Positions 1-29,058 are shown, numbered from the stretch's first letter. The stretch is DNA of 33,215 bases from Patescibacteria group bacterium UBA4664 (GCA_943354575.1 CALRCL010000006.1:1-33215), one strand, 5' to 3'. A program made the numbers and translations. Notes: a model not told the origin generated them from the sequence alone.

Positions 1-148
1 ATTTTTTAGCTAAGTGCGGCTTGAGAGTCTCGTTCGCCACAATATTTGTGAGTGTGCCACCGTTAATTTCTATGGCATCGATAATATCAAAAATCATATT
101 ACCAGCCCCAAAAACTACCCAGCTAGTTTTGCTATTTTTGTTGCTCAT
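1..148 (-). CDS. N-terminal fragment of a Rossmann-type protein, possibly NeuD/PglD-like sugar acyltransferase (truncated by window edge)
   Basis: Own reading of the minus strand from the ATG at 148: MSNKNSKTSWVVFGAGNMIFDIIDAIEINGGTLTNIVANETLKPHLAKK. It is open to the window edge and has a VVFGAGN nucleotide-binding-like start. It overlaps the 3' end of the 132..2030 ORF by 17 bp. Absent from the ORF track because it is partial. Confidence 0.55.
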   Translation of the reverse strand, partial: MSNKNSKTSWVVFGAGNMIFDIIDAIEINGGTLTNIVANETLKPHLAKK

Positions 149-2030
149 AGAAGTAGCTTATCAGTTGCGATACAATGTAGTCCACCAATTGTTCATGAAT
201 ATTTGGGTTGATAGGCAAACACAGACTCCTGTCGAAAAAATCCCAGGCCTTTGGGGCTTGCTGCTTGGTTCCTAACGGTTGATATTTGACAGTTGTATAA
301 ATATTTCTAGATAACAAAAAATTGGCTAATTCATTACGCAACTTCTCATTTTTTAGAACTATCCAAAAAAGGTAGGTCGAATTTTCGACTGCCGTCGGTG
401 TGGGTGGAATAACAACATGCCCGTCTGCTACCAATTGTCTGAGCTTTTTGTGATACCAATCCAATACCTTTTTGCGCTGCTCTAGATTTTGCTTGATACC
501 CTCTAGCTGCGAAAGCCCAATTGTTGCCGTGATATTATTCATCGATAGCTTCAAGCTCGGGTCGATAGCGCCAATCTCCCACCATTTCTTGCTAGAGCCA
601 CTTTTGGCGAAACTACTGTTGTTTTTTTCTAAAATGCCATAATACGACAGGGACCTGCAGTACTCTATAATTTTTTTATCATTGCCTAGTATCATCCCAC
701 CCTCACCTGTAACGAGGATTTTATTCATATCAAACGAGTATAGTGCGTAATCATATTGCTTGGCGGTATATTTGCGATACTGCTTAGTAAAGGGTGAGTT
801 TGCGGCGTCTAGCACCAGGATAATGTCGTTTCTTTTAATCTTATTTAAATGCTTCTTGAGCTCCTTTATAGCAAATGGGTAGCCGCCATATTCTAGGCCA
901 ATAATAACCTTGGTATTTTTTGTGATGTTACTTTTGATGCTCTCTAGGCTGGCATTGGGGATTGTGGCATCAACATCTACTACTCTATATTTTATCTTCA
1001 AAATTTCGAGTACGTTTTTTATCCCAAAAAAGTGGGTGCCAGGAATCAACACTTCATCATTAGATCTAAGCCTTAACGCTTTCAATAATATCCAGAACGC
1101 ATTAGTGCATGAATTTGTGGCCACCCCGCCTTTAAAGCCGATGCATGCCGAAAAGGCCGATTCAAATCTGACAACTTCGGCGCCATGGCCAACCATATGA
1201 GAGTCAAACACCGGTTGGAGCTTGACTGCCAATTGGTTGTCGAACGAATTACCAAAAACCGAAATCATTTCTTTGCCGAGCATACCTTCTATCCTTTTGT
1301 CAGTCATCCTTTTATAGCTTCGTTCGTCGCCTTCAATAGCTGCAAATATATCAAGCAAGGTGGCTTTTTGGGTTTTTGATATTTTAAGCCAATACTTGAA
1401 ATCATTTCCTGGGTCACCGTTGCTGTAGTTAGATGGGTAGTGATATTTTTTAGCGACCTTTTTTGAAATACAATAATTCGCAACCGAAATCTGTCCTTCG
1501 GTATCTCTTTGACCATGCGGTAAAATTGTTCCGTGATATTCTGTTTTAACCAACATTATATTAGTTTTAATAAATTTCTGCGCCACAAATAACTTTGCTA
1601 GGTACATGCTGTCGGTGATATGCACATCGGCGTCTAGAAACTGATACCATTTGGCGTTAAAATACTGTAAACAAAAATCACGCCTTTTGCCTGAGTTTGT
1701 CATTAATTCTGCAAAGCTTACGGTAAGCTCCTGTATGGTTTCGACATAAATAAATCTATCATCAGTTTTATTTAATTTAGCAACATAGGCTTCGATTAGA
1801 GGGGAGTTGCCGTTACTAACAAGGACATGAATAAAGTTTTTGTAGGTCTGCCCTTTTAGATCTGTGATTAATTTTTTTAGAGAAATTAAAGCAGGGTCAA
1901 AAATTGGAGTAATAATGCAAAAAGTGGGCTCAGACTTGTTCTTGTTTTCAAAGCTATCAAGCAAATTGGCGTACTTATGCAAACCCACGACTCTATTTTT
2001 TAAGGAGTCCTTAATGGCAGTTAAGCTCAC
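132..2030 (-). CDS. Fusion protein: N-terminal GT2-like glycosyltransferase + C-terminal DegT/DnrJ/EryC1-type PLP aminotransferase
   Basis: N-terminal FCIITPIFDPALISLKKLITDLKGQTYKNF and DAD motif (YQFLDADVHITD). C-terminal ATNSCTNAFWILLKALRLRSNDEVLIPGTHFFG, VLDAANSPF and SFDMNKILVTGEGGM (PLP-lysine region). GTG start overlaps the upstream stop (GTGA). Confidence 0.85.
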   Translation of the reverse strand: MSLTAIKDSLKNRVVGLHKYANLLDSFENKNKSEPTFCIITPIFDPALISLKKLITDLKGQTYKNFIHVLVSNGNSPLIEAYVAKLNKTDDRFIYVETIQELTVSFAELMTNSGKRRDFCLQYFNAKWYQFLDADVHITDSMYLAKLFVAQKFIKTNIMLVKTEYHGTILPHGQRDTEGQISVANYCISKKVAKKYHYPSNYSNGDPGNDFKYWLKISKTQKATLLDIFAAIEGDERSYKRMTDKRIEGMLGKEMISVFGNSFDNQLAVKLQPVFDSHMVGHGAEVVRFESAFSACIGFKGGVATNSCTNAFWILLKALRLRSNDEVLIPGTHFFGIKNVLEILKIKYRVVDVDATIPNASLESIKSNITKNTKVIIGLEYGGYPFAIKELKKHLNKIKRNDIILVLDAANSPFTKQYRKYTAKQYDYALYSFDMNKILVTGEGGMILGNDKKIIEYCRSLSYYGILEKNNSSFAKSGSSKKWWEIGAIDPSLKLSMNNITATIGLSQLEGIKQNLEQRKKVLDWYHKKLRQLVADGHVVIPPTPTAVENSTYLFWIVLKNEKLRNELANFLLSRNIYTTVKYQPLGTKQQAPKAWDFFDRSLCLPINPNIHEQLVDYIVSQLISYFYEQQK

Positions 2031-2860
2031 TTGAGGCCTAACATTTCCCTAGCTTCAGGCGGAGTGGCAATCTCTAGTTGCATCAGTTTAGCCATTTTGA
2101 CAATTCGTTTTACAAGCATTTCATTAGAGGCCATGATAGACTTCTCTCTATCAAAATACTGGTTATCTTCTAGGCCTACCCTGACGCCTCCACCCATACT
2201 CATACTCATAACGTTAGCGTCAAGCTGGTACTGGCCGACTCCGGCGATACTCCAGACCGCGTTTGCCGGAAGCAATGAGTAAAATGATGAAAAAACTGCA
2301 GGGTGCAAGGGCGAGGTACCAAGTGACCCTAATAAAATATTAAAATAAGGATGCGAATCTTTAATAATACCCTTCTCTATCAAATAATTAGCCTTGTGTA
2401 GCATCCCTGGTTCAAAAACTTCGAGTTCAGGCTTAATGCCTTTTTCCTGCATTTTAATGGCTAGTTGCTCAATGATATCTGGCGGATTCACAGATGCGGT
2501 GCTAATAAAATTCATTGAGCCTACAGTAAGTGAGGCCATATCTGGCTTGAGGTCGCCTTTAAGATCCAGGCACTCTGACCGTCTTTCGAAGTCAGACCAA
2601 GCTCTGCCGCTGGTGGTGGCATTTAGGATTACCTTATCGTTCTGGCTTCTGATGCCGTCTATTATTTTGCCGAATTCTTCTTTTTTCCAGGTTGGATTAC
2701 CGTTTTCGTCGCGCGGATGAATATGTATAATCGTAGCTCCAAGTTTGACACAGGCCAAGCTCGATTTGATTATTTCACTGGCCGTAACGGGCAATCTTGG
2801 GTTGGCTTGTTTAGAAGATACCATTCCGGTTGGGCAGAGATTGATGATTAATTTTTTCAT
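2027..2860 (-). CDS. BKACE family (beta-keto acid cleavage enzyme, DUF849; 3-keto-5-aminohexanoate cleavage enzyme-like)
   Basis: IIHIHPRDENGNPTW (metal-binding HxH) and GGGVRVGLEDNQYF (family GLED motif). Full length at 277 aa. Confidence 0.88.
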   Translation of the reverse strand: MKKLIINLCPTGMVSSKQANPRLPVTASEIIKSSLACVKLGATIIHIHPRDENGNPTWKKEEFGKIIDGIRSQNDKVILNATTSGRAWSDFERRSECLDLKGDLKPDMASLTVGSMNFISTASVNPPDIIEQLAIKMQEKGIKPELEVFEPGMLHKANYLIEKGIIKDSHPYFNILLGSLGTSPLHPAVFSSFYSLLPANAVWSIAGVGQYQLDANVMSMSMGGGVRVGLEDNQYFDREKSIMASNEMLVKRIVKMAKLMQLEIATPPEAREMLGLK

Positions 2861-2903: not shown

Positions 2904-3476
2904 TTACTTTTTAACTTCAATATAAATTGTTACAGGGTCGTCATGTGTATCATAACGAAAGCCATATCCTGATTTCATAAACCCATACTGTTTGGCCTCA
3001 CGAAAACCTATTTCTTTTAGAATGTCCTTCATATGCCTCGGAGTGTAGGCGTATCTGTGCCCCCAAGAGAACAACCTATCTGCAAGGATTTCATCCCAAT
3101 GGCCAAAACGCAAGTTAAGGTGGGGTAGGATGTGTTTTTTATGCTTTCTTGAGTGGGTTAGGTAAGAGCTTACTAGCTTATTGAGGCCTGGCCAGCCAAT
3201 TCTCATTACGCTTCCTGGCTTTAGTACTCTATAGCACTCCTCTAAAAGTTTATAGCCGTCTTCTTTATCAAAATGCTCAATAACATGTTCGGAGAAAATA
3301 CTACTAACTGTATTGTCTTTAAGGGGTATCCCTTTTAAAAGGTCTGCCTTAACTGCCCCACCGCTAGTATCTATATCGTAGTTGATCCACCCACCAATAA
3401 TATGACTACTGGAACCTAAGTGAATATTAATAATTTTTGTTGTGGGGCGATTAATTGCTTTTTTACTATTAGGCAT
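2904..3476 (-). CDS. Class I SAM-dependent methyltransferase (Methyltransf_11-like)
   Basis: INIHLGSSSHIIGGWINYDID, FSEHVIEHFDKEDGYKLLEECYRVLKPGSVMRI pattern. Confidence 0.75.
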   Translation of the reverse strand: MPNSKKAINRPTTKIINIHLGSSSHIIGGWINYDIDTSGGAVKADLLKGIPLKDNTVSSIFSEHVIEHFDKEDGYKLLEECYRVLKPGSVMRIGWPGLNKLVSSYLTHSRKHKKHILPHLNLRFGHWDEILADRLFSWGHRYAYTPRHMKDILKEIGFREAKQYGFMKSGYGFRYDTHDDPVTIYIEVKK

Positions 3477-4597
3477 TATTTCTGCCTTAGAGCCAGTTCA
3501 TAAACCTCCAGTGTTTCTTGGGCTGTTTTGTGCCAGCTGTATTTTTTGATCTGGCGGTTACCTTTTATAACTAGCCCTTTGGCGAGCTTTTCGTCTGTCA
3601 GCACTGCCAGCATGGTCTCGGCCATTTCAGTAACATTGCGTGGGTCAAAATAGGCGGCGGCGTCACCTAATACCTCGGGCATACATGTAGCATTACTGCT
3701 AGCCACCGGCAGGTGGTGTGCCATAGCCTCGAGTGGTGGCAAGCCAAAGCCCTCGGAGAGCGACGGAAAAACATAAAGCTTGGCGTTTTTGTATAAGCCC
3801 GCTAGCTCTTGGTCGGTCACAAAATCAGTAAAAACAACTCTATCTTGCAAACCGGCATCAGCTACCGACTGCTCTAAGCCCTTATGAAAGGTATCTTTTT
3901 TGCCAGCAATAACTAGCTGATAATCAAGCATGTATTTGGTAATTAATTTTCCAAAGGCCATTATCATTCGCTCTAGGTTCTTGTGCGGATAGGCATTGCC
4001 AACATACAGTACAAAGGGCTTATTGATACCTTTTTTGTCTAAATTTACTCTGGGAGTAGCAAAATCTTTATCGACGGCTTCGTGGGTAACGCTTATTTTA
4101 TTACGACGCACCTTAAATGTTTTTGCAACATCCTCTTTGACATATTCTGTAGGCACCAAAACAACACTGGCTTTTTTAATGCCTTGGCGCAGTACAATAT
4201 TGCGCATCACCTGCTCCTTGAACATATAGTAGACTTTGCGGGCCATGGAGTTTCGTAGGTTTCTGAAGTGTAGTAGGGTCAAATCGTGGATTGTAATTAC
4301 AAACTTGCCCCGGTATGCAACCGGAAAATTAAAATTAGTAAAATGCACTAAGTCGGGCTTTCGAGCATTAAGTATCGATAGTATTTCGGTCTGCTCTTTA
4401 ACTCCAAAAAAATTAGCAGTTGTGCGGACATACTCTAGGTTGTCGACCTTAAGGTCGAGGTTTTTGGTATCAATATCGCGAACCAGTAATTCGTACTGGT
4501 TTTTTTTGTCGATCTCTAGTATTGCCCTAAGTGTATTTTCGATATATCGGCCAATGCCGGTTTTTTTGATTCCTCTGCCGTCTATTAGTATCTTCAT
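3476..4597 (-). CDS. GT4 family glycosyltransferase
   Basis: LVHFTNFNFPV, PFVLYVGNAYPHKNLERMI, SLSEGFGLPPLEAMAHHLPVASSNATCMPEVLGDAA. Confidence 0.92.
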   Translation of the reverse strand: MKILIDGRGIKKTGIGRYIENTLRAILEIDKKNQYELLVRDIDTKNLDLKVDNLEYVRTTANFFGVKEQTEILSILNARKPDLVHFTNFNFPVAYRGKFVITIHDLTLLHFRNLRNSMARKVYYMFKEQVMRNIVLRQGIKKASVVLVPTEYVKEDVAKTFKVRRNKISVTHEAVDKDFATPRVNLDKKGINKPFVLYVGNAYPHKNLERMIMAFGKLITKYMLDYQLVIAGKKDTFHKGLEQSVADAGLQDRVVFTDFVTDQELAGLYKNAKLYVFPSLSEGFGLPPLEAMAHHLPVASSNATCMPEVLGDAAAYFDPRNVTEMAETMLAVLTDEKLAKGLVIKGNRQIKKYSWHKTAQETLEVYELALRQK

Positions 4598-18061: not shown

Positions 18062-20302
18062 TCATTTCACTTCAGCCATAACAATTACAGCTTCAATGTT
18101 TTTAGACTGTCCAATAACTCCTGCTAATGAATCATTAGTTACCCAATCCATCCAACCTATCCCCGAAACATGCACCTTGTATTTAATATTATATAAATAC
18201 GAAGCAACCCCTGTTAGTCTTAATTTAATGGCCTCGATTGGCCTCGATTGTCCGGTAGTGCCACAAGTATTATTCGCAGTTACATAATTAGCCCACCCTA
18301 GGCCACGGACATTAGCCGAGCATTCTATATTAATTGACCCAAATACTGAGTTTATTGTTTTGAACGACAAGGCTTCGAGGGGCCTTGATTGCCCTGTTGT
18401 TCCGCTAATACTGCCCTCGCCTACTGCAGTTGTCCAGCCTAAATTACTTAGGTGGGATGAGTATGTAATGGTATGGTCTTTGATTGCCGAAAGACCCATA
18501 GGGTCTAGGCAAGACTTTTGGGATTTATTCAGGCCTTGAGAATTATTTATAGGTGAAAGCCTGAATTCAACCGCTTCTAACCTCAGGCTTAGGCCAGAGG
18601 AGCCTGCACAACCGCCGGTATTGGTCCACTCCATCCATCCATAATTTTCTATATAGCCTCTGTACCACAGGGTATACTGGCTAGCGACTTCACCTACCAA
18701 GGCTGCTCGGATAGCCTCAGTTCTCAGCGACTTGCCAGTGGTGCCACTAACCTGCCCACCAGACTTAAAGTCTTGCCAGCCGATGCTTTGCACATGGGCA
18801 GAGTACACGATGTCGCCAGCTAGACCTGTATTGTTAATGAGAGAAATATTGATTGCCTCTAGCCTTCTGGATTGTTCTGTAGTGCCACTAATCATTCCGT
18901 CGCTAACTGTGGGCTGCCAACCTATGCTACTTATATGTGATAATATATTCAAGGAAACCGGCCTAGAGACATCGGCTGGTGCTGTACCAATTGAGCTTGG
19001 GGTGGCGGTATCGCCATAAAAAGGTACAGATTTCAGGTAGGGTGCTATTTCAATTGCCTCTATTTTTTTAGTTGCATCACCAAGATAGCCTGCGACTCCA
19101 TTATTTTTAGTCCAACCCATCCATCCAATACCACCTACATGCACCCTATACCAAACATCGTATATATCTGAAAAAATTCCAGTAGGGTTAATTTTAATAG
19201 CACTGGTAGCTCGATTTTGTCCTAGAGTGCCCGATATCATACCACTATTAATTATTGGCTGCCAACCCCTCTCGTTACTGTATGAATTATACTCTACACT
19301 CCCGTTTATCTTGAAGGCTTCTAATGACCTAGATTCGCCTGTTGTGCCAATTACTCCGCTATTAGTTTTTTGTGCTGTCCAGCCTGTACCGCCTAGGTAC
19401 GCCTTGTAGGCTAGGAGTATTTGACTGTCGTATGTGCTCCCAAACCAGCCAGTAAAGTCTCGCCAAAAGTTACGATTACCATAGGCACTACAAGCATCGC
19501 CAGTACCATAGAGGTTATTAAGGGCGGCAGCGTTGGGCTGGTAGGGCGTGTACGAATAAAGTGCCGCGGCAGCACGGGTGGTGATATTGACGCTACTGCT
19601 TCCGCAGGCCGAATTGGGGTTGTAGCCAATCGTATTAACCCCAGGCAAGGTGGGCGTCCAGAACCCGCCGCTTCTGACGCCATCAAAAAAGTTACGGAAA
19701 TGTCTGGTACCCTGCGCAACTTGATTTGCAAAACCAAACCACTGCGCATCGCATGGTGCGCCGTCTGGGCAGCCAAAGCCCATAGCGGTGCGGTACTGCC
19801 AGCTGGCAGCCCAGTCGTCAGTAATTAGACCGGTTTCTTTTTGTAAAGTAACCAATATAACCTGAGGGTTAATGGAGTAGGTTTGGGCGGCGTTCCAAAT
19901 AATCTGTGCTGCACTAAGCCCACCTGGTACCACAACGGGGCTACCGTCGGGGTTGAATTGGCCAATGTTGTTTTGTTTGGTTATGGGGTTTTCGTTGTAC
20001 TCCTTAAGGCAAGTCCATGGCGGGCTGTACACTGTGCCACTAGAGCCTGTAAAGCCTGCATGCCACCTGTTGCAGGTTGGTACCTTGGAGTTAAGGAAGT
20101 TCTGAATATCGGCAACCGACATAGAGTTTTTATTAACAAAGATACTGTCGTCAATAATACGGCCGGCCTCAAAACTAGCAGCTTTGGCTGGAGTGGGCAA
20201 AAATAATGCCAGGCTAAATAGCGCAAAAAATAGCAAAAATATGGCTTTTGACTTTGATAATTTAGTTCTGATACTGGGTTTTAAAATATTAGCGTTGTTC
20301 AT
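18062..20302 (-). CDS. Secreted protein: signal peptide, lysozyme/lytic-transglycosylase-like domain, nine ChW (hydrophobic W, PF07538-type) repeats
   Basis: N-terminal AIFLLFFALFSLALFLPTPAKAASF signal peptide. SINPQVILVTLQKETGLITDD (lysozyme-like helix with Glu). Repeated GW(x)n(S/A)GTTGxSRxLEAI units over the C-terminal ~450 aa. Confidence 0.85.
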   Translation of the reverse strand: MNNANILKPSIRTKLSKSKAIFLLFFALFSLALFLPTPAKAASFEAGRIIDDSIFVNKNSMSVADIQNFLNSKVPTCNRWHAGFTGSSGTVYSPPWTCLKEYNENPITKQNNIGQFNPDGSPVVVPGGLSAAQIIWNAAQTYSINPQVILVTLQKETGLITDDWAASWQYRTAMGFGCPDGAPCDAQWFGFANQVAQGTRHFRNFFDGVRSGGFWTPTLPGVNTIGYNPNSACGSSSVNITTRAAAALYSYTPYQPNAAALNNLYGTGDACSAYGNRNFWRDFTGWFGSTYDSQILLAYKAYLGGTGWTAQKTNSGVIGTTGESRSLEAFKINGSVEYNSYSNERGWQPIINSGMISGTLGQNRATSAIKINPTGIFSDIYDVWYRVHVGGIGWMGWTKNNGVAGYLGDATKKIEAIEIAPYLKSVPFYGDTATPSSIGTAPADVSRPVSLNILSHISSIGWQPTVSDGMISGTTEQSRRLEAINISLINNTGLAGDIVYSAHVQSIGWQDFKSGGQVSGTTGKSLRTEAIRAALVGEVASQYTLWYRGYIENYGWMEWTNTGGCAGSSGLSLRLEAVEFRLSPINNSQGLNKSQKSCLDPMGLSAIKDHTITYSSHLSNLGWTTAVGEGSISGTTGQSRPLEALSFKTINSVFGSINIECSANVRGLGWANYVTANNTCGTTGQSRPIEAIKLRLTGVASYLYNIKYKVHVSGIGWMDWVTNDSLAGVIGQSKNIEAVIVMAEVK
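18065..19421 (-). repeat. Protein-level tandem repeat region: nine ChW repeats in three triads
   Basis: Nine GW cores in order: GWTAQ, GWQPI, GWMGW, GWQPT, GWQDF, GWMEW, GWTTA, GWANY, GWMDW. About 30-aa linkers follow units 3 and 6. Confidence 0.85.
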
Positions 20303-25048: not shown

Positions 25049-25761
25049 TCGAACAGCTCCACAAGCCTGCGCTTAACAAGGCTTTTTATAATATTAATTC
25101 CATTCCAATTATTTTGACCTCTAGATTTTGAATATTCGGTATAAATAGCTTTTATTGGGTACTCATCTATGACCAATCCCTGCTGCTTAGCCCTCCATAG
25201 CATCTCCGAACAAAATTCATATCCGCTGCTCTTCCATTTTAATTGCCCTAAGGCCTTTTTTGAAAAAACTCTAAGCCCAGACTGCGAATCAGTAACCCTT
25301 ACACCAAATATCATGAACGTAAGCATAGACAAGCCCTTGTTGCCTATTACTTTAGTCTTGGCCATCCCTTCTGAATTAACCAATCTACTGCCGATAAGCA
25401 AGTCCACTCTTGATGCAGCCATATTGTTTATGCCGCCAATAACATCTTCTGCGTCATGTTGGCCGTCTGCATCCATTGTGATGGCTATATCGTATTCCTG
25501 CTGTTGTGCATAGCTTAAGCCAGTCGCAGTAGCGCTTCCACTTCCTGAGTTTAATATATGAGATATTACAGTTGTTTTTTCTTTTTTGCAGATTGTAGCA
25601 GTGTCATCGGCAGAGCCATCATCTATAACTATTATTTCGTAGCTAAATTTTTCTTGAGCCAATGCTCTCTTAAGATTTTTTATAACACTGCCTATGATCC
25701 TGGCTTCATTGAAGGCAGGAATAACAATTGCGATTTTAAGGGGTTTAACCATACCAGACAT
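25045..25761 (-). CDS. GT2 polyprenyl-phosphate sugar transferase (DPM1-like)
   Basis: IAIVIPAFNEARIIGSVIKNL, VIDDGSADDT, AITMDADGQHDAEDV, DSQSGLRVFSKKAL. Confidence 0.92.
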   Translation of the reverse strand: MSGMVKPLKIAIVIPAFNEARIIGSVIKNLKRALAQEKFSYEIIVIDDGSADDTATICKKEKTTVISHILNSGSGSATATGLSYAQQQEYDIAITMDADGQHDAEDVIGGINNMAASRVDLLIGSRLVNSEGMAKTKVIGNKGLSMLTFMIFGVRVTDSQSGLRVFSKKALGQLKWKSSGYEFCSEMLWRAKQQGLVIDEYPIKAIYTEYSKSRGQNNWNGINIIKSLVKRRLVELFE

Positions 25762-26627
25762 TATACACCTTTGATTAAATTATTCAGATATTCCCCGTAC
25801 CCAGACTTGACTAAGTCTTTGGCTACTTCTTTGAGCTTATTGGCATCAATATACCCCTCGCGGTAGGCAATCTCTTCGATACAGCCAATCTTTAAGCCAG
25901 TGCGCTTTTCGATAACATGTATGTATTCGGCCGCCTCCATCATCGAGGCAAATGTACCGGTATCGAGCCAAGCCGATCCGCGGTCCATAACCTGTACTTT
26001 GAGCTTTTTGCGCTTCAGGTACTCTGCATTAATACTGGTAATCTCGAGCTCCCCGCGATCGCTGGGCTTGATGTGGTGGGCGATATCGACGACATCGTTA
26101 TCATAAAAATACAGCCCCGTAATTGCGAAGTTCGATTTTGGCTTGGTGGGCTTTTCGACTACCGATACGACATTCATGCCACCATCGAACTCAACCACTC
26201 CGTAGCGCTCTGGGTCTGAAACCTGATAGGCGAATATTGTGCCGCCTTCGACATCCGTACACTGCTTTAGGGCCTTACCAAACTGGCTGCCGTAAAAGAT
26301 ATTGTCACCCAGCACCAGAGCAACTTTGTCGCTACCAATAAACTCTTTGCCAATAATAAAGGCTTGTGCCAGGCCATCTGGCGACGGCTGCACGGCGTAA
26401 CTGAGGCTAATACCAATATCGCTACCATCGCCCAAAAGGCGCTTAAATTGGGCCTGTTCGTGCGGGGTGGTGATTATTAGAATGTCTTTTATACCTGATA
26501 GCATTAGTGTGCTTAAGGGGTAGTAGATCATTGGCTTATCATAAATAGGCATTAGTTGCTTACTAATACCTTTGGTGATTGGGTAAAGGCGCGTCCCGCT
26601 GCCGCCGGCTAAAATTATTCCCTTCAT
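25761..26627 (-). CDS. rfbA: Glucose-1-phosphate thymidylyltransferase
   Basis: [68 protein letters not shown]. Confidence 0.98.
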
Positions 26628-26633
26628 TACAAA

Positions 26634-27479
26634 TTACTCCTTGTTTAAATAATTCTTCAATTCATGACGCCAATCGATAGACTTGAAGCCTGCAGAATGA
26701 ATTTTATCAAGATTAAGTGTACTAGATAACGGGCGAGGTGCAATACCTGTTTTGCCCTGGTAGTATTTCTGGGTACTAATATTCGCAACTTTTTGGTTGA
26801 CGTTGGCAATATTATATATTTCTCTTGTGATATCAGCCCAGCTAACACTTGGGCCGGAATTGGTAAGATTATATAAGCCATAGTCTTTGTTTTTGGTAAG
26901 CAGAAAATCTATTGCCTTGACCAGCTCAGAAGTAAAGGTTAGTCGGCCTATTTGGTCCGATACTACGGTCGGGCTAATACCTTTTTGGCCCAACTCTAGC
27001 ATGGTACGCACAAAATTTTTGCCTTCACCAATAACCCAAGATGTTCTGATAATATAATGCTTTTTAGCTAAGCTACAGGCTATATCCCCAGCTACTTTAC
27101 TCGCGCCATAGACAGAAATAGGCGATAGACTTTCTTCTTCGGTATGGTTTTTTTGGGTGCCATCAAAAACATAATCTGTAGAAACATGAACCAAAACAGC
27201 CCCAATTGAGTTGGCTGCTTCGCTTAAATATGCTACCGCCGTGGCGTTGACTTGGTAGGCCAAGACCCTCCCCTGTGCTGTTTCGGCACCGTCTACATCG
27301 GTGTAGGCGGCGGCATTGATGATGTACTCTATGCCTTGCCAGCTATAGTTTTGCACACTTTTTTTGTTTGTGATGTCTAGCTCATCAATGTCTGCATGCT
27401 TGGCTTTGGGGTATTTTTTTCTTAAGGCCGTGCCAAGCTGGCCATTGGCGCCGACAATAAATATTTTTGAATCTTGCAT
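26634..27479 (-). CDS. rfbD: dTDP-4-dehydrorhamnose reductase
   Basis: FIVGANGQLGTALRKKYP, NAAAYTDVDGAE, STDYVFDG, YGASKVAGD. Confidence 0.96.
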   Translation of the reverse strand: MQDSKIFIVGANGQLGTALRKKYPKAKHADIDELDITNKKSVQNYSWQGIEYIINAAAYTDVDGAETAQGRVLAYQVNATAVAYLSEAANSIGAVLVHVSTDYVFDGTQKNHTEEESLSPISVYGASKVAGDIACSLAKKHYIIRTSWVIGEGKNFVRTMLELGQKGISPTVVSDQIGRLTFTSELVKAIDFLLTKNKDYGLYNLTNSGPSVSWADITREIYNIANVNQKVANISTQKYYQGKTGIAPRPLSSTLNLDKIHSAGFKSIDWRHELKNYLNKE

Positions 27480-28047
27480 TACAACTCTAGTGGTTTAATA
27501 CTTTTGAGCACTGGGTGCTTGGAGTCTTTTCCTGAAATAATAGCCTCAGACTGTGGTATTGGCCAGTCTATAGCGGATTCTTTGTCAAAAAGATTGAGAA
27601 AGGTGTACTGGCTGTATCGAGACCAATGCTCGTTGACCAAATAAGTATAGGTAACATGGGGCTCGAGGGTTTGGTAGCCGTTGGCTACCCCTCTGGGCAC
27701 AAAAATAGCAATACTGGGGTCTATCTCCATAGCTAAGCTCTGACCAAAACTTTCTCCTTTGCGCAGATCTACCCAGGCTCCAAAAACTACACCGTTAGCT
27801 ACCGAGATGAATTTTTCCCAGGGCTCGGCGTGCAACCCCCTGGTGACTCCACGCTCTTTGTTATATGAAAAATTGTTTTGAACAACTTCAAAGCTCGGCA
27901 AGCCCAAGGCTTCCATTTTTTGTTTTTGGTAGTTTTCTTTAAACCAGCCGCGGTTGTCGCCATGCACTGGCAAATGTAAGGCTAATAATCCTGGGATGTT
28001 GGTTTTTTCTATTTGGAGTTCTTGGTTTTTTTTGGGCTCGGAGCTCA

Positions 28048-28048
<1 letters not shown>
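27479..28048 (-). CDS. rfbC: dTDP-4-dehydrorhamnose 3,5-epimerase family (actinobacterial-like variant)
   Basis: VQNNFSYNKERGVTRGLHAEPWEKFISVANGVVFGAWVDLRKG, FVPRGVANGYQTLEPHVTYTYLV. Position between rfbB and rfbD. Confidence 0.93.

Positions 28049-29058
<1,010 letters not shown>

Follow-up and report, generated by a model that had tools for sequence, protein, structure and literature searches.

We analysed a stretch of 33,215 nucleotides from Patescibacteria group bacterium UBA4664 (GCA_943354575.1, CALRCL010000006.1:1-33215). Below, "the window" refers to this whole stretch, which comes from a metagenome-assembled genome (MAG) of Saccharibacteria and whose left edge lies at a contig end. 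The genes at this edge encode a beta-keto acid cleavage enzyme (BKACE, DUF849), a glycosyltransferase-like domain fused to a DegT aminotransferase, and the beginning of a probable sugar N-acyltransferase. We consider it likely that these genes form a module for an N-acylated amino-deoxysugar in which the BKACE serves as a dedicated acyl-CoA generator. This reading is built on the identities, order and overlaps of the genes, on their intact active sites, and on an association between BKACE and acyltransferase genes that extends across a whole clade of the enzyme.

Three overlapping genes at a contig end

The three genes lie on the minus strand and overlap as the initial annotation, made from the sequence alone, had described. 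The BKACE gene (2027..2860; 277 amino acids) shares a 4-bp GTGA between its stop and the start of the fusion gene (2027..2030), and the end of the fusion gene overlaps the start of the acyltransferase gene by 17 bp (132..148); sequence and reading frames agree on both. The BKACE matches PF05853 over positions 1-274 of 274 (E 1.2e-82; 277.8 bits, gathering cut-off 24.8), and its AlphaFold (AF2) model (pLDDT 90.4) has a TIM-barrel fold like that of Kce, the top Foldseek matches being the Kce structures 2Y7F and 2Y7E and the DUF849 protein 3NO5 (TM-score about 0.92-0.94; 0.92 to 2Y7F). Alignment to 2Y7D gives H46 and H48 (the HxH of HIHPRD) and E231 (with D232 in GLED) as zinc ligands, and the active-site residues E147, R227 and D232 align with CcaKce. 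The motifs that had been read as intact in the BKACE, and SFDMNK in the DegT domain, are indeed so (H46, H48, E231, D232 and K437 are present), and the structural model matches the Kce crystal structures. The predicted products of the enzyme, from a beta-keto acid and acetyl-CoA, would be an acyl-CoA and acetoacetate.

Two positions of the same alignment differ: CcaKce Glu14 is Val14 in the window, and Kce Tyr145 is Phe149. The catalytic tyrosine of the characterised Kce and ObcA enzymes is therefore replaced, and canonical cleavage cannot be assumed. The tyrosine is not family-wide in the sampled sequences, since phenylalanine occupies this site in all 21 sampled BKACEs outside the clade described below, several of them in catabolic loci. 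The window protein does not reach the threshold of any NCBIfam BKACE equivalog, which leaves it without an assignable known substrate; for the Kce equivalog (NF052387) it reaches 251 bits against a cut-off of 382, and it also lacks Glu14. BKACEs have been grouped by the nature of their substrates, and promiscuity and non-BKACE members have been shown (PMC4922564).

The fusion gene (132..2030, minus strand; 632 amino acids, GTG start) is delimited by its open reading frame (ORF), by its Pfam domains and by the same fusion in G010, a genome of the same genus, where the protein is 88% identical. Its DegT/DnrJ/EryC1 aminotransferase domain (residues 269-623; 162..1226) matches PF01041 (E 2.1e-56; 192 bits, cut-off 19.8), retains the lysine K437 that binds pyridoxal 5'-phosphate (PLP), encoded at 720-722, and has TlmJ (5UID, E 7e-39) as its nearest solved relative. 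It scores far under every NCBIfam equivalog cut-off, so the sequence does not fix its sugar substrate. The N-terminal half is probably a GT-A-like glycosyltransferase (GT; about residues 35-250, with DADVH at residue 133; 1281..1928). This assignment draws on a Pfam GT2 match under the cut-off (E 0.0036; 17.7 against 23.3 bits), on a stand-alone homologue, 36% identical, that is encoded near the BKACE of the distant genome G384, and on a best PDB profile match to the glycosyltransferase 5HEA (E 0.06, from a four-sequence profile). The half was judged by sequence alone, as the AlphaFold model of the fusion (pLDDT 53) was too poor to use. Of the GT2-DegT fusion proposed initially, the DegT half thus stands, and the GT2 half is probable, not proven.

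The fusion gene is also mosaic between two genomes of the genus (window 1086-1670 against L006 1355-1939): DNA identity is 88-100% over residues 1-100 and 320-632 and 59-81% over residues 121-315, at the GT/DegT junction, where 58 of 107 changed codons are nonsynonymous. This suggests recombination at the sugar-specifying part.

Of the third gene, the window holds the first 49 codons (1..148, minus strand); base 1 is the contig end, and the assembly has nothing to its left. The 49-residue ORF by itself, being only the N-terminus, has no Pfam match, and we assign it to the NeuD/PglD/VioB family of sugar N-acyltransferases from its homologues. In G010 the same ORF extends to 139 residues and matches TIGR03570 (NeuD/PglB/VioB; E 3.4e-13). 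It is 35% identical to the N-terminus of a full-length homologue in G384, which matches the same family with E 9.5e-41 (139.6 bits, cut-off 160.8); the full-length homologues of the distant Patescibacteria G384 and G740 belong to the TIGR03570 NeuD family and have the LbH histidine. The column of this histidine (His145) is near-invariant among homologues; in G010 it coincides with the final codon of the ORF, and in the window it would fall beyond the contig end. A search of G000, G010, G011 and G012 for the remainder of the gene did not recover it. The homologues support the earlier suggestion that the partial ORF is NeuD/PglD-like.

BKACEs of one clade adjoin acyltransferase genes

The BKACE family is generally catabolic, and the presence of a member in a glycan locus had been called unexpected in the initial annotation. 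We collected bacterial loci by BKACE similarity only, and the neighbours were then read by profiles on stop-to-stop frames. In the phylogenetic tree, the window-type BKACEs group with two copies from riboflavin-related clusters in a single clade (support 100/99). All its members have Ser84 and Arg86 (TSGR), a pair found in 0 of 21 other BKACEs, and a four-residue insertion (GDLK 102-105 in the window) is present in all bacterial members and missing in six phage copies.

We found that a NeuD-type acyltransferase gene adjoins the BKACE, or lies one gene off, in 13 of the 14 bacterial loci of the clade against none of 21 other BKACE loci, most of which were read with 1.5-kb flanks, i.e., for the adjacent gene only (Fisher p 9e-9). 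The association is retained when loci are collapsed to genus (11/11 against 0/21, p 8e-9). The sole exception among the 14, L011, is a 5-kb contig (BKACE-DegT-RmlA), and its sister L009 has NeuD (NeuD-BKACE-DegT-RmlA). Elsewhere the order is GMD, Fcl and then BKACE-DegT-NeuD (L008), NeuD-BKACE-FdtA-DegT-GT2 (L065 and L066), GT2-DegT-NeuD-BKACE (L069), or NeuD-BKACE (L064, L067, L068 and L010). DegT genes often complete the BKACE/NeuD set, and they differ in type: DesI-like and C4-type in L009, LegC/PseC-like in L008, FdtA with a C3-type DegT in L065 and L066. The position of the amino group thus varies while the BKACE stays. The adjacency of DUF849 and DegT, first noticed in the window, recurs together with NeuD in Patescibacteria, in several Bacillota lineages and in phages. 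When one Bacillota class was scanned at a stringent threshold with the window protein as the sole query, only L009 was recovered, again. The distant BKACEs of L070-L072 lie in catabolic-looking operons. A BKACE in a glycan locus is thus unusual for the family, as had been stated, but normal for this clade, of which the Saccharibacteria locus is just one example among many.

Some loci of the clade differ in their surroundings. In a Peptococcaceae (L010:7104-8831), NeuD and BKACE form a bare pair with no obvious sugar genes adjoining, as if the pair were a mobile unit in itself. On plasmids of Streptomyces camelliae (L004) and Salmonella Karamoja (pRSE21, L005), the BKACE lies beside ribA and genes for riboflavin synthase, a gamma-glutamyltransferase and an S-adenosylmethionine (SAM) methyltransferase, and the Streptomyces copy is also near rosB. 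These plasmid clusters look like a flavin-analogue or flavophos-like cluster.

Copies of the clade in phages

Two scans of viral contigs gave 13 contigs with a BKACE of the same clade; a search of the INPHARED phages with the window BKACE gave no match. The BKACE is near a NeuD-type/LbH or GNAT acyltransferase in 12 of the 13 contigs, and in two also near DegT. The partner is a GNAT protein in several phages, often with overlapping genes. In L078, L081 and L082, which carry terminase-like genes (L078 also a portal gene), the BKACE overlaps or abuts the GNAT gene and several glycosyltransferases are nearby. In L083-L086 (L083-L085 being near-copies), a GNAT-like protein follows the BKACE, and giant proteins, probably structural, lie on both sides of the pair. 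The BKACE overlaps NeuD in L089 (a 296-kb contig), L090 and L091, with a DegT-like gene following in L089 and L091, and RNA ligase and tail/head connector families flank L089 and L090. The putative viral contigs L088 and L092 have LbH genes. Because the partner is either a NeuD-type or a GNAT protein, which have unrelated folds, the constant element is acyl transfer and not one protein family.

Some of the phage contigs with a BKACE exceed 150 kb; examples of the gene set are L089:6001-8079, L091:5884-8024 and L078:4995-6286. The DegT-like protein of L089 (7432-8079) has only 215 residues, with a Pfam DegT match to its N-terminal part, and is far shorter than usual sugar aminotransferases. In L078, a gene of the PAPS-reductase family (3137-3982) lies among the glycosyltransferases.

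Rare genes kept together in distant Patescibacteria

The BKACE gene is rare around the window: two of the 13 genomes in its family carry it, as do two of the 4 in its genus, two of 380 sampled across the phylum and two of 86 from the class to which G384 belongs. The N-terminal domain of the fusion was found in 0 of 239 other genomes sampled from the phylum, yet a homologue stands beside the BKACE in G384 and G740. There, RmlA, the GT-like gene and NeuD are co-stranded and converge on a BKACE on the opposite strand, over a total span of about 3.1 kb; in G384, the full NeuD gene sits between the GT-like gene and the BKACE. That two rare genes are kept together in distant genomes argues for a shared function of the BKACE and the GT-like protein.

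Proposed pathway and alternatives

In the pathway that we propose, RmlA and RmlB would make dTDP-4-keto-6-deoxyglucose, which the DegT half would aminate, probably at C4, to a viosamine- or Fuc4N-type dTDP-amino sugar. The BKACE would convert a beta-keto acid and acetyl-CoA into acetoacetate and a non-acetyl acyl-CoA. The NeuD/PglD-type enzyme would transfer this acyl group to the amine of the sugar, which the glycosyltransferase half would pass to a surface glycan. The window encodes rmlA, rmlD, rmlC and rmlB (25761..29046, minus strand; TIGR01207 E 8e-143, TIGR01214 E 2e-64, TIGR01221 E 2e-29 and TIGR01181 E 9e-138, NCBIfam), a probable supply of dTDP-4-keto-6-deoxyglucose and dTDP-rhamnose and the probable source of the DegT substrate; we counted their presence on the same contig in favour of the module. 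That the BKACE supplies the acyl-CoA would be the simplest reading of a constant acyltransferase partner with varying sugar genes (C4 DegT, C3 FdtA with DegT, GDP- or dTDP-linked). The initial annotation had raised this role for amino-sugar N-acylation, and it gains support from the acyltransferase homologues of the partial ORF, the recurrent adjacency and the conserved catalytic residues, with the chemistry and the acyl group as predictions. Of the three outcomes that the annotation had named as refuting it, none was observed.

We are evenly divided on extending this reading to the whole clade. Its members would then be mobile enzymes dedicated to acyl-CoA generation that spread among Patescibacteria, Bacillota and large phages together with a NeuD-type or GNAT acyltransferase and, in some cases, a sugar aminotransferase, and that serve to make an undescribed N-acyl amino-sugar decoration on cell surfaces and in phages. 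The substrate would be expected to be a common beta-keto acid, since phages would draw on the metabolites of their hosts.

Several points weigh against an acyl-CoA generator. The activity of the clade enzymes is a prediction from sequence, the module holds no gene that makes a beta-keto acid, no DegT gene adjoins the BKACE in G384 and G740 (the nearest is about 100 kb off in G384), one viral copy (L087) has no acyltransferase, and neither do the two clade members in riboflavin-related clusters. Phe149 also leaves room for divergent chemistry, and BsfD, which has phenylalanine at the same site, transfers an acyl group without cleavage (PMC12871164). If the clade had such BsfD-like chemistry, it might, with no cleavage step, C-acylate a keto compound or produce some other small molecule; the acyltransferase encoded next to it would either use this product or work independently. 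The riboflavin-related clusters fit this idea, as flavophos targets riboflavin synthesis. However, we rejected Phe149 as a sign of such chemistry: 21 of the 21 other BKACEs sampled have the residue, and it therefore does not mark chemistry. BsfD (9ZSC) also scores 113 bits against the window BKACE, compared with about 153 for Kce and 3NO5, and the adjacent acyltransferase is best explained by an acyl-CoA product. We regard BsfD-like chemistry as unlikely.

A BKACE that produces acyl-CoA is also to be preferred over a reversed or recycling reaction, in which acetoacetate and an available acyl-CoA would give acetyl-CoA and the sugar would merely be N-acetylated. NeuD/PglD enzymes mostly use acetyl-CoA, and reduced genomes may be short of it, but the association is equally strong in free-living Bacillota and in phages, whose cells should have enough, which makes this direction improbable. 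We give even less weight to a direct action of the BKACE on a nucleotide-sugar keto acid, such as a 4-keto uronic acid, in place of making the donor acyl-CoA. It would suit G384 and G740, where the BKACE is co-stranded with a nucleotide-sugar dehydrogenase that makes uronic acids, but most loci (L008, L009, L011, L065, L066 and the window) have genes for 6-deoxysugars, which lack a carboxyl group, and the NeuD or GNAT partner would be left without explanation. Finally, the catabolic character of the family, with the operons of L070-L072, would fit a bystander that hitchhikes in a glycan island and has an unrelated catabolic role; adjacency to acyltransferases in 13/14 against 0/21 loci and translational overlap across phyla and phages make this the least credible of the four, and already disfavoured.

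Genomic setting

The window corresponds to bases 1-33215 of contig C6 in a genome of 606,730 bp (32 contigs, 91.7% complete), and the closest relative with the locus, Baikal-deep-G207, is labelled Candidatus Saccharibacteria. Next to the BKACE, in the same gene run on the minus strand, are a SAM methyltransferase (2904..3476; PF08241, E 7e-9), possibly a sugar O-methyltransferase with a VioM-like role, and a GT4-type glycosyltransferase (3476..4597; PF00534, E 7.6e-33). Besides rmlABCD, the contig encodes a Wzy_C ligase, a PMT-like protein, an ABC-2 exporter and several glycosyltransferases, together with mnmE-, KhpB- and YidC-like genes (mnmE and YidC recognised by eye). The contig is accordingly a chromosomal surface-glycan region. 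We also considered contamination as the source of the locus and judged it unlikely, given the mnmE-, KhpB- and YidC-like genes and a second MAG with the same locus. A protein of 746 residues with eight clostridial hydrophobic W (ChW) repeats is encoded at 18062-20302, inside this region.

Implications and comparison with known systems

An open literature search gave no paper linking DUF849/BKACE with glycan loci. If our reading is correct, it gives an anabolic role to a family known mainly as catabolic, apart from the recent flavophos case, and it adds another route to unusual glycan acyl groups besides ketoacyl-synthase/acyl carrier protein (ACP) systems and general acyl-CoA pools. It would also predict hidden sugar structures on Saccharibacteria surfaces and the synthesis of acylated amino sugars encoded by large phages, and it offers a specific hypothesis on the function of a BKACE subfamily that has none assigned.

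Individual components of the locus have characterised relatives. The window BKACE shares with Kce the fold (TM-score 0.92), the zinc ligands, and the active-site Arg and Glu/Asp, but is 33% identical to it and has a biosynthetic neighbourhood instead of a catabolic one. BsfD (9ZSC), from flavophos biosynthesis, is likewise a DUF849 member in a biosynthetic cluster with phenylalanine at the Kce tyrosine site; in contrast, it has no sugar genes around it and forms a phosphonate through an acyl transfer that involves no cleavage (PMC12871164). The full-length homologues of the partial ORF resemble PglD, NeuD and VioB (TIGR03570) in family and LbH histidine, whereas they are coupled here to a BKACE and several score under the TIGR03570 cut-off. 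The DegT half has the PF01041 domain and PLP lysine of the TlmJ- and PseC/DesI-type aminotransferases, but is fused to a GT-like domain.

The closest counterpart of the whole module is the viosamine island of Pseudomonas syringae pv. tabaci (vioA, vioB, vioT, vioM, vioS, vioR and acp), whose product is Qui4N with a 3-hydroxybutyryl group; synthesis of the acyl group is ascribed there to vioS, vioR and acp, and its attachment to the vioA product to vioB (PMC3927599). The island combines a DegT aminotransferase, a NeuD/VioB-type acyltransferase, a methyltransferase and a sugar transferase with a dedicated acyl supply, and the window would have the same set. All roles of a viosamine-type module are represented by family in the window, with a weak glycosyltransferase match, only the N-terminus of the acyltransferase, and a different family for acyl supply. 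The island uses ketoacyl-synthase III, a reductase and ACP for this supply, whereas the module in the window has no ketoacyl-synthase, ACP or reductase gene and has the BKACE in their place.

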